Source: Clostridia bacterium (lineage in GTDB: Bacteria; Bacillota; Clostridia; Oscillospirales; CAG-272). Taken from it: a stretch of DNA of 64,000 nt. The notes under the pieces are model-generated. The model made no database searches. It was not told where the DNA came from and saw only the letters and a list, made by a program, of their open reading frames with translations. A program made the translations under genes and the position numbers. Of this stretch, positions 990-3,424 are shown in pieces; the first letter of the stretch is position 1; the number at the start of each line of letters is the position of its first letter. Where the stretch lies: assembly GCA_017508425.1 (NCBI GenBank), contig JAFVYZ010000028.1:62001-126000 (forward strand). The letters are read 5' to 3'.

Positions 990-1025
990 GAAAGGGAACG
1001 CCGTGTTTTCACGGCGTTCCCTTTC
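990..1025 (-). terminator. hairpin after the Cys-Ala-tail protein gene
   Basis: Perfect 16-base arms starting GAAAGGGAACGCCGTG around a TTTT loop, directly after the stop codon. On the minus strand a run of seven T follows about 13 bases later; the plus-strand side also has TTTT, so it may work both ways. Confidence 0.6.
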
Positions 1026-1028
1026 TTT

Positions 1029-2057
1029 TCATATTTTCGGCGTGCTTATTTTATAAGTATCCTTTTGGCTACAGCCCGCGCGACCGCCCCCCGCACAGGC
1101 ACAGGCACAAGCACACGCACAACCGCCACCGCTAAAGCCGCCGCCGCGCGAGCGATGCTTGTTTTTTTCCGCCACGTAGGCGGGATTTCTGCGCCCATAG
1201 ACGTGAACATGATGACCGTAACCGGTAAGAAATCCTCTGCCGCGCGCGTAAGACACGTAGCAATCGGCCACGAAGAGCTCGACAAGTGCCAAAAGAATCA
1301 TGACGAATACACAAAATGTGATCACCCCACTCCGATCCTCTGCCAGCTCATCGTACACCCCCGAGTCATCAAAATCCGAATACGTAACCGTGCTCGGGTG
1401 ATCGAAGACCTCCTCGCCGTAGATCACTCGCAGGGGCACGGTGGTGCCGTGCGGCATGCTCCCACTCCACAAAAGCCATCCTTGTGCCGAATCGGGCGCG
1501 TTGCTGCTCACATCAAAATCGTAAACCAGCCAGCGGAAGGTGTATGCCTCGACGTCGATCGCGTTAAACCAGCCGGGTACAAATTCGTAAAAATACTTTC
1601 CTTGCGAATCCTTGCAAAGCATATTCTTCTGATTGATCTTAAAGGAAAACTCGATCACCTCTCCCGGTTCTACGGGCTCATAAAAGGTGACATCGGCATA
1701 AACTGCGTATTCATCCTCGTAGCTTTTCAGCTCCGCAATGTTATGGGAAAGCGACTCCGGGTAGTAGGTCCAGCTTCCGTTGGCAAGACCGATGGATACC
1801 CACGTCAGCGGCTCGGACCCCTCCATCACGCACCAGCGAATGTGATATGTAATATCCAGAGACCCATCTGCGTATGGCTTGATCTCCAGATCATACCGTT
1901 CGATCACATCATCGGGCTGCGGGCGATAAAAAACGATCACGCAAAGAAGCGCCAGCTGTATGACGACCAAAACGCAAAGCAGCACAGTATAAAAAACGGG
2001 AAAGCGGCGGTGCTTCTTTACATATTCCTCACTGAAAAGATCTTTATCCTTTTTCAT
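1029..2057 (-). CDS. DUF2207-like membrane protein with C-terminal Cys-Ala repeat tail
   Basis: This 342-residue protein has a short cytosolic start, a membrane helix near 19-44, an extracytoplasmic beta-rich domain of about 200 residues rich in aromatic and acidic residues (general look of DUF2207), a second helix near 245-270, and a cytosolic tail. The tail reads RSRGGGFSGGG, then CACACACACAGGGRAGCS at about 313-330. All five repeat cysteines are TGT while the alanine codons vary (GCG, GCT, GCC), so the protein pattern, not a DNA microsatellite, appears to be kept. The gene starts inside the stop of the upstream radical SAM gene (ATGA overlap), with GGGGAGGATAT as ribosome site. The tail could be modified by that enzyme or bind metal; both are inference. 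Confidence 0.75.
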   Translation of the reverse strand: MKKDKDLFSEEYVKKHRRFPVFYTVLLCVLVVIQLALLCVIVFYRPQPDDVIERYDLEIKPYADGSLDITYHIRWCVMEGSEPLTWVSIGLANGSWTYYPESLSHNIAELKSYEDEYAVYADVTFYEPVEPGEVIEFSFKINQKNMLCKDSQGKYFYEFVPGWFNAIDVEAYTFRWLVYDFDVSSNAPDSAQGWLLWSGSMPHGTTVPLRVIYGEEVFDHPSTVTYSDFDDSGVYDELAEDRSGVITFCVFVMILLALVELFVADCYVSYARGRGFLTGYGHHVHVYGRRNPAYVAEKNKHRSRGGGFSGGGCACACACACAGGGRAGCSQKDTYKISTPKI

Positions 2058-3424
2058 ATATCCTCCCCCCGAAACGGACAGCTTTTCGCCGCATCATCCG
2101 TCATACCACGCAGTTTTTTTGCCAAGGGATGTGTCCACACGGTATCAAAATCATCGGTTAAAATATTGCCAAGTGCGCCGCCGGTGCCAAGCCAGCTCTG
2201 GCAGGGTATCACCGTGCCGTCAGGTGCGATCGCCATGTTGCTGAGTGCCGCACCGCAGGCGGGCACGCGCATGCCAATGCTTTCAAGTGCTACTGCGTCA
2301 ACAAGCCCCGGAGAGGTAAAGTCTATTTCCATACCGTGCTCGTCGCAAAACGCTTTTGCCTCCCTTAAAATACCGAACAGCTCCTCTTTGGTAAGATCGT
2401 ATTGCGCGTGATCATGGGCAGCACTGCCTGTGCAAATTAAACCACTAACGGTAACAAATCGTACACCAAGCTCAAAAAGAAAACGCAATGTACTGATATA
2501 ATCGGCATTCAGACGGCAAAGCGGCGTATTTACACTCACATCAAGTCCGCCCGCAAGCGCGGTCCGAATACCCGCCACGGTCTCTTGGTGATGCATACCA
2601 CCCACCAGCTTATTATGTATCTCGGCATCTGCGGCATATAGGGTGATCTGCACGCTGTCAAGCTCGGCAGCACAAAGCGCTGCCACCAGCTCCGCATCCA
2701 ATCTTGTGCCGTTGGTATTCAGGCGCGTTACAAACCATTTTGCGTGTGAGATCATCTGTGCAAGATCCGCGCGACCCGTTGGCTCGCCACCCGTAAAGGT
2801 CAGCATCGGCACGCCTGCGCGGCGCAGCTTTTCGATAACGTCACACCACTCCGCCAAGGTCATCTCTTTTGTCTTGCCCAGCTGCTCACCGGCTGCATAA
2901 CAAAACATACACTTTTGATTGCACTGCCAGCGCCCCATCCGGTCCGTCATGGCGCTGACCATAAGATCCATACGGTGCGGCGCTTTCATGTAGGCGGCAT
3001 AGGTGCGCAGGGACATTTTTTCGATCTCAACATCGGCATTCTCGCCGCGCGCGATTGCAAAAAGGATCTGTGTCATATCGAGAAGATCATCGTACAGCGC
3101 GCCACTGCTTACCACGGGATAGGCTTTTGCGGTACGACGCACCGTGCGCGCGGCAATTTCTTTGTATGCCTCATCGGTGATCGGCTTTCCGTCAAAAGCA
3201 TTGACCTCATCAATAAAACGGGAAAGCAAAAGCGCCCACGAGGGTCCGAGCGGCAACAAATAATATCCGTTTAAAATAACGATATACGGCGGATTTTTAA
3301 AAAGCGAAAAGCGCGGGGGAATCAGATGGATGCGCACAACACCCGGTCCATTGGGGTTAAAGGTGCAATGCTTTACGCCCCTTTTTGTTTCGCGCCACGC
3401 GGAAATTTTATTCAAAAGTCCCAT
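2054..3424 (-). CDS. radical SAM protein with SPASM-like C-terminus
   Basis: The 456-residue protein has an N-terminal domain of about 160 residues, then WQCNQKCMFCYA (Cys 168, 172, 175), the CxxxCxxC site for the SAM-cleaving 4Fe-4S cluster, followed by the radical SAM barrel with TFTGGEP and LNTNGTRL. The C-terminus carries PACGAALSNMAIAPDGTVIPC and a last Cys near the end, an incomplete SPASM-type region for an auxiliary cluster. Such enzymes often modify peptides or proteins. The start is the ATG 4-5 bases after GGGAGGA; an in-frame TTG 12 bases upstream would swallow the ribosome site. It overlaps the Cys-Ala-tail gene by 4 bp, so the two are probably coupled in translation. No small precursor peptide gene was seen nearby, which makes the neighbour the best substrate candidate. 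Confidence 0.85.
   Translation of the reverse strand: MGLLNKISAWRETKRGVKHCTFNPNGPGVVRIHLIPPRFSLFKNPPYIVILNGYYLLPLGPSWALLLSRFIDEVNAFDGKPITDEAYKEIAARTVRRTAKAYPVVSSGALYDDLLDMTQILFAIARGENADVEIEKMSLRTYAAYMKAPHRMDLMVSAMTDRMGRWQCNQKCMFCYAAGEQLGKTKEMTLAEWCDVIEKLRRAGVPMLTFTGGEPTGRADLAQMISHAKWFVTRLNTNGTRLDAELVAALCAAELDSVQITLYAADAEIHNKLVGGMHHQETVAGIRTALAGGLDVSVNTPLCRLNADYISTLRFLFELGVRFVTVSGLICTGSAAHDHAQYDLTKEELFGILREAKAFCDEHGMEIDFTSPGLVDAVALESIGMRVPACGAALSNMAIAPDGTVIPCQSWLGTGGALGNILTDDFDTVWTHPLAKKLRGMTDDAAKSCPFRGEDI

Follow-up and report, generated by a model that had tools for sequence, protein, structure and literature searches.

A Radical SAM Enzyme Encoded Beside a Membrane Protein with a Cys-Ala Tail: A Recurrent Gene Pair of Clostridia and Their Phylum, and a Proposal for Its Chemistry

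Introduction

What does a radical S-adenosylmethionine (SAM) enzyme do when its gene overlaps that of a membrane protein ending in a regular alternation of cysteine and alanine? The question arises from a stretch of 64,000 nucleotides of a Clostridia bacterium (contig JAFVYZ010000028.1, positions 62,001 to 126,000; the window in what follows), in which both genes lie on the minus strand and are joined by an ATGA overlap. The C-terminus of the membrane protein is GGGCACACACACAGGGRAGCSQKD, and the fuller C-terminal stretch is ...RSRGGGFSGGGCACACACACAGGGRAGCSQKDTYKISTPKI. An original prediction for this DNA had proposed that the enzyme belongs with the tail and that its target is a full-length membrane protein; the positions, strand and overlap that it gave were confirmed from the sequence. 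Our analysis indicates that the enzyme very probably acts on this tail. The chemistry that we prefer, the installation of Cys-to-Ala thioether (sactionine-type) links in the predicted cytosolic (Cys-Ala)5 tail, we hold with about even confidence.

Results

Co-occurrence of enzyme and tail

Tail and enzyme profiles were searched independently in genome samples drawn evenly at the level of class (291 genomes), family (196) and phylum (329). The source genome was part of every sample and is counted once in totals. The enzyme threshold was E 1e-60 for class and family and E 1e-40 for the phylum, where the tail search used a broader profile (A5); tail counts cover only tails resembling the search profiles. 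In the class sample, tail and enzyme were each found in five genomes, the identical five. The family sample gave 14 genomes with the tail and 14 with the enzyme, 12 of them in common, and the phylum sample 2 with the tail and 12 with the enzyme. Combined, 29 genomes carry the enzyme, and 19 have a match to the tail profiles. When the loci were read, a CA-tail gene adjoined the enzyme on the same strand in 26 of the 29 enzyme genomes, including 10 from the phylum sample and one from the family sample (G369) in which the profiles had not detected the tail. The other three are interrupted by contig ends: in G497, the contig stops about 430 bases behind the enzyme; in G250, the tail protein is located at the end of a different contig; in G289, the DUF2207-like gene beside the enzyme leaves the contig in its Gly-rich stretch, and a CA tail is found at the end of another contig.

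Read from the side of the tail, 17 of these 19 genomes also have the enzyme. The remaining two, G508 and G520, show the tail only, and in both the contig breaks off within the tail gene toward its 5' side, the side expected to carry the enzyme. Among tails resembling the search profiles, common occurrence without the enzyme was therefore not seen, and the original view that enzyme family and tail belong together, with a full-length membrane protein as target, passed this test of co-occurrence. All five loci at which the enzyme was found in named genomes (Clostridia and Oscillospiraceae metagenome assemblies) were paired as well, two of the five being also among the sampled genomes. The gene pair thus occurs in a range of Clostridia and, beyond them, elsewhere in the phylum. 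The source assembly holds a single match each for the enzyme, the tail and the membrane protein.

Among 30 pairs, the enzyme gene leads in 25 and follows the tail gene in 5, so that adjacency outlasts the inversion of gene order. The pairwise identities of the enzymes correlate with those of the membrane proteins taken without their tails (0.93, a value that none of 1000 label permutations attained), which reflects common inheritance and alone is no proof of interaction. The distribution is patchy, the membrane protein being present in 1 of 20 other genomes of the same genus. No conserved third gene was found across 19 neighbourhoods of 5 to 17 kb, which were compared mutually and not annotated singly. 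One distant subgroup seems to have a third gene of its own: in its three genomes (L055, L056, L057; f105), the gene of a secreted-looking protein, similar by eye in all three and presumably DUF4097-like, is located downstream of the pair. Viral contigs yielded no copy of the enzyme, and a plasmid search for it returned only a PqqE.

Conservation of the tail

The sequence homologues bear out similar Cys-Ala tails in Clostridia, which the original prediction had only loosely suggested. Among the best 120 of 1152 reported membrane protein homologues, 119 contain exact (CA)5GGGRAGC, the single exception being SGGRAGC; as protein searches gather candidates by shared words, such sets are biased toward tail-bearing proteins. 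Column entropy after the repeat is 0 to 0.12 bits throughout GGGRAGCSQK, 0.29 at the following D and 0.54 and 1.33 in the next two columns; beyond these, from 14 residues downstream of the repeat, it is 3.4 to 3.7 bits. Upstream, about 3 bits are reached within 11 to 12 residues of the repeat. The conserved island, repeat and follower together, corresponds to 1059-1121 of the window, and between 5 and 27 variable residues come after it in the 120 homologues.

The codons tell the same story. In 22 distinct tails, outlying units included, Cys is encoded by TGC 99 times and by TGT 60 times, and Ala by all four codons. Cys and Ala are thus kept while their codons vary, which indicates that the protein sequence, not a DNA repeat, is preserved; judged by this pattern, the tail is under selection. 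All six tail Cys in the window are indeed TGT, as had been pointed out. This carries no special meaning, since other tails mix TGC and TGT, and it is the codon choice of one copy.

A second subfamily was examined through the best 120 of 2979 homologues. Here, the core consists of 3 to 5 contiguous CA units, often preceded by outlying SSCAHSS-type units, in which Val, Phe or Gly are also possible after the Cys. The core matches the pattern in 118 of 120, and the other two are near variants (CACACACTCAGGGRAGC and CACACACSGGGRAGC); GGGRAGC follows in 116 and SSGRAGC in 2. More distant relatives have GCACVSCACACVSCACACACAGGGGAGC, and also SSCACACACACASSGGCT at the extreme C-terminus. All these tails share about four Cys-Ala units in a row, a turn of Gly/Ser and a single isolated Gly-Cys. 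Two variations were observed in addition. In one genome (G295; L010/L016), a single enzyme is preceded by two tail proteins in tandem, of which one has six CA units and the other a Tyr replacing one tail Cys (CACACAYACACA). Two distant members (L050, L054) have a longer tail with CVS spacers, which a plain hydropathy scan scores as a membrane helix.

The enzyme

The window enzyme matches Pfam Radical_SAM (PF04055; E 2.6e-20, 73.7 bits against a cut-off of 29.5) and SPASM (PF13186; E 2.0e-8, 34.8 bits against 21.5). Its AlphaFold2 model has a mean predicted local distance difference test score (pLDDT) of 87.8 and a predicted template modelling score of 0.89. In 34 aligned enzymes only six Cys are invariant, all of them of the cluster type: the three of the CxxxCxxC motif and C390, C408 and C449. 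The SPASM-like cysteines noted earlier do not form the full seven-Cys SPASM motif; the C-terminal domain of the window enzyme has three family-wide Cys and is Twitch-like. Phylum-level relatives show more Cys in this domain than these three. C390, C408 and C449 are predicted to hold one auxiliary Fe-S cluster; with three Cys, an open site for a substrate Cys would remain. Of the other Cys, C303 is present in 22 and C360 in 25 of the 34 enzymes, and C20, C303 and C360 are invariant inside the subfamily of the window enzyme (65 of 65).

The nearest solved sequence is that of SkfB, a sactisynthase (E 1.2e-20), and the nearest predicted folds found by Foldseek are SuiB, SkfB and CteB. The fold alignments cover amino acids 18/20-456 with SuiB and 31-452 with SkfB, and only 141/147-456 with CteB. 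In the model, the secondary structure of the N-terminal domain fits the winged-helix RRE that peptide maturases of the SkfB/SuiB/CteB kind have fused to the barrel, and the domain is a predicted RRE; the enzyme has no Pfam match to the PqqD profile. Among NCBIfam radical SAM equivalogs, the best E-value belongs to TIGR02668 (85.5 bits against a cut-off of 325.25). The window enzyme reaches no cut-off among the best 25 of 63 NCBIfam families, nor do two relatives (L055 and L050) among the best 25 of 74 families each.

The membrane protein

The AlphaFold2 model of the membrane protein (pLDDT 88.3) has a beta-sandwich domain between two predicted membrane helices, and the tail is predicted to lie in the cytosol; the (Cys-Ala)5 repeat itself has pLDDT under 50. 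The ectodomain is DUF2207-like in the model, and the window protein is without a Pfam match to PF09972 (DUF2207). Two relatives give sub-threshold PF09972 scores of 16.1 and 14.8 bits against a cut-off of 24.4. At E 0.1, NCBIfam returned 0 families, TIGR04222 included, for the window protein and likewise for eight relatives, three of them partial. Seven relatives (L011, L012, L027, L029, L030, L031, L032) have a zinc-ribbon-like segment, YYPxCxGCGAPRPEGxxxCEYCGRSFIKSEE, between membrane helix and tail, so that their predicted cytosolic part has two Cys sites that are separate from each other.

Features of the locus

The positions of genes and features are collected in Table 1. The enzyme gene starts with ATG at 3424, with GGGAGG before it, and stops with TGA at 2056-2054, as read from the sequence; the start codon of the membrane protein is ATG 2057-2055. 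Upstream of the cassette and on the same strand lie genes that we take to be argH- and argG-like, and beyond the tail gene is one that is presumably ABC-transporter-like. Directly behind the stop of the tail gene (window 990-1025) is a hairpin of 16 perfect pairs and a loop of 4 bases. Its T run is on the side of the plus strand, and only for that strand was it flagged as a terminator.

Table 1. Genes and features of the two-gene cassette (window positions; aa, amino acids)
Feature	Position	Strand	Basis
Radical SAM/SPASM(Twitch) enzyme gene, 456 aa, proposed modifying enzyme	2054..3424	-	Pfam, AlphaFold2, Foldseek
N-terminal RRE-like domain, aa 18-125, likely docking part	3050..3373	-	Model: four strands, then three helices
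CxxxCxxC of radical SAM cluster (C168, C172, C175)	2900..2923	-	Invariant in 34/34 aligned enzymes
Twitch/SPASM-like region, three invariant Cys (C390, C408, C449)	2078..2257	-	34/34 aligned; Pfam SPASM
ATGA gene overlap	2054..2057	-	Sequence reading
Tail-bearing membrane protein gene, 342 aa, proposed substrate	1029..2057	-	AlphaFold2 model, homologues
Predicted membrane helix 1, aa 21-43	1929..1997	-	Model helix 21-43; hydropathy peak aa 25-43
Beta-sandwich ectodomain, aa 49-217, DUF2207-like	1407..1913	-	
Predicted membrane helix 2, within aa 237-272	1242..1349	-	AlphaFold2 model; hydropathy peak aa 245-263
(Cys-Ala)5 repeat, proposed modified core	1092..1121	-	Exact in 119/120 homologues
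GGGRAGCSQKD after repeat, likely recognition element and lone Cys	1059..1091	-	Column entropy

Discussion

Proposed mechanism

Three observations together point towards thioether formation: the enzyme is of a suitable kind, its putative target is rich in Cys, and no Cys outside the clusters is conserved throughout the enzyme family. The enzyme would dock on the GGGRAGC[ST]xKD element of the tail, the deoxyadenosyl radical would take the alpha-hydrogen from successive alanines, and the sulfur of a neighbouring Cys would close each ring along the repeat. The product would be a protein capped with sulfur rings and likely retained in the membrane: the lack of a conserved third gene makes cutting and export by dedicated partners unlikely, and, together with the freely varying sequence after the tail, suggests that the product remains a membrane protein. 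For the individual steps there are precedents. A substrate Cys is bound on the auxiliary cluster of CteB, and the corresponding cluster of SkfB and of MoaA leaves a site open, according to passages of PMC6231123. SkfB takes Ala as acceptor and loses the alpha-hydrogen only (excerpts of the review PMC8326336); Ala is not named among the natural acceptors listed in those excerpts. The relevant parts of PMC12395415 report an alanine sactionine in ruminococcin C1 and, for the enteropeptins, a six-membered thiomorpholine that joins Cys to the adjacent residue.

Alternative readings

That the two genes are neighbours without any functional link is scarcely credible. Nothing beyond general caution speaks for it, though common inheritance alone can yield correlated divergence; against it, the pairing holds despite a patchy distribution and reversed gene orders. 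An enzyme acting elsewhere, or on a product carried by the tail, would leave the tail as an unmodified strip of metal or Fe-S ligands. Soft metals are bound by CxCxC strips, the outlying CAHSS units of one subfamily bring in a His, and the zinc-ribbon-like CxxC...CxxC lies within the same predicted cytosolic part. Metal ligation alone, however, explains neither the invariant Ala nor the tight pairing with such an enzyme, and we regard this reading as unlikely. Very unlikely, in our judgement, is a tail that serves as the precursor of a small peptide or cofactor, to be cut off and set free after modification, with the membrane protein as an odd leader. Release of the product is the rule in known radical SAM peptide pathways, and some distant members end directly after GGCT; against this, the 19 neighbourhoods, in the mutual comparison described above, hold no conserved third gene, and the best 120 homologues continue for 5 to 27 variable residues after the conserved part.

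Two further readings keep the tail as substrate and change the chemistry. The sulfur could be joined to the beta-carbon of Ala, a ranthipeptide-like choice of site that would give lanthionine-type bridges by radical chemistry. This would be the work of the same kind of enzyme, CteB is a near fold, and the beta-methyl is the sole side chain of Ala; yet the nearest solved sequence is SkfB, which with an Ala acceptor abstracts the alpha-hydrogen only (the PMC8326336 excerpts), and we consider a beta-carbon link rather unlikely. Alternatively, the enzyme could be an epimerase of the PoyD/EpeE kind, acting on the alanines to leave a tail of alternating L-Cys and D-Ala. The same excerpts state that sactisynthases and epimerases alike abstract the alpha-hydrogen, that what then becomes of the radical sets them apart, and that a critical Cys is used by epimerases. 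The six Cys that are invariant throughout the 34 enzymes are all of the cluster type, which weighs against an epimerase, although C20, C303 and C360 are invariant within the subfamily of the window enzyme; epimerisation would also leave the invariant substrate Cys unexplained, and we consider it quite unlikely. The formation of Cys-to-Ala thioethers remains our preferred reading.

Significance

We go one step further only tentatively, and consider this step less probable than the chemistry itself: the tail may be a permanent cytosolic Cys-Ala thioether ladder on a membrane protein and not a released peptide, the anaerobe's counterpart to the oxygen-using MNIO/TIGR04222 pair, and the first instance in which sactionine-type chemistry equips a resident membrane protein with a part that is structural or handles metal. 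As to its role in the cell, a rigid cap, a metal or redox site and an assembly tag are guesses. If the proposal is true, radical SAM thioether chemistry extends beyond antimicrobial and signalling peptides to the finishing of a resident membrane protein. It would also suggest that different bacteria reached the same plan, a modified Cys-rich tail on a membrane protein, by way of unrelated enzymes, one using oxygen and the other not. The compact two-gene cassette suits coexpression, and its repeat, with a single donor (Cys) and a single acceptor (Ala), would be a clean test object for site order, ring size and docking.

Comparison with known systems

No description of the two-gene cassette was found in the open-licence literature, judged mostly by titles and abstract openings, nor was DUF2207 found there in combination with a radical SAM enzyme. 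Proteins of the DUF2207 family (PF09972) have an extracellular beta domain, a membrane helix and a low-complexity C-terminus, a layout that the membrane protein of the window resembles.

The enzyme itself is of a known kind, like SkfB, SuiB and CteB. SuiB and CteB (PDB 5v1q/5v1s/5v1t; 5wgg/5why), which are among its best Foldseek matches, are radical SAM and SPASM peptide enzymes as well, and SuiB aligns with it over the N-terminal domain too. Both have a SPASM domain with two auxiliary clusters and act on small peptides, whereas the window enzyme has three conserved Cys in this domain. SkfB (PDB 6efn) makes one thioether in a small exported peptide; the putative target here is a repeat on a protein of 342 amino acids, and with 45.2 bits the window enzyme is far below the TIGR04403 cut-off of 300. 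Sactipeptide systems in general have a small leader-bearing precursor that is cleaved and exported, in contrast to the candidate substrate with its two predicted membrane helices. Enteropeptin and ruminococcin C are precedents for short-range Cys/Ala chemistry (the cited parts of PMC12395415), but they are released antimicrobial peptides, and the enteropeptin acceptor precedes the Cys, whereas the isolated units described here are Ser-Ser-Cys-Ala.

The nearest published parallel of the system as a whole is the TIGR04222 group, in which a membrane protein with a low-complexity, Cys-containing C-terminal tail is likewise encoded beside a peptide-modifying metalloenzyme, MNIO (DUF692). According to the portion of PMC12452194 used here, TIGR04222 proteins are proposed as MNIO substrates, their tails are Ser/Gly-rich and predicted to be periplasmic, and the association is loose, MNIO genes being absent from a third of the genomes with TIGR04222-type genes. 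The pair described here differs from that group in its protein families, in the class of its enzyme, in the predicted side of the tail and in the closer association of its two genes.
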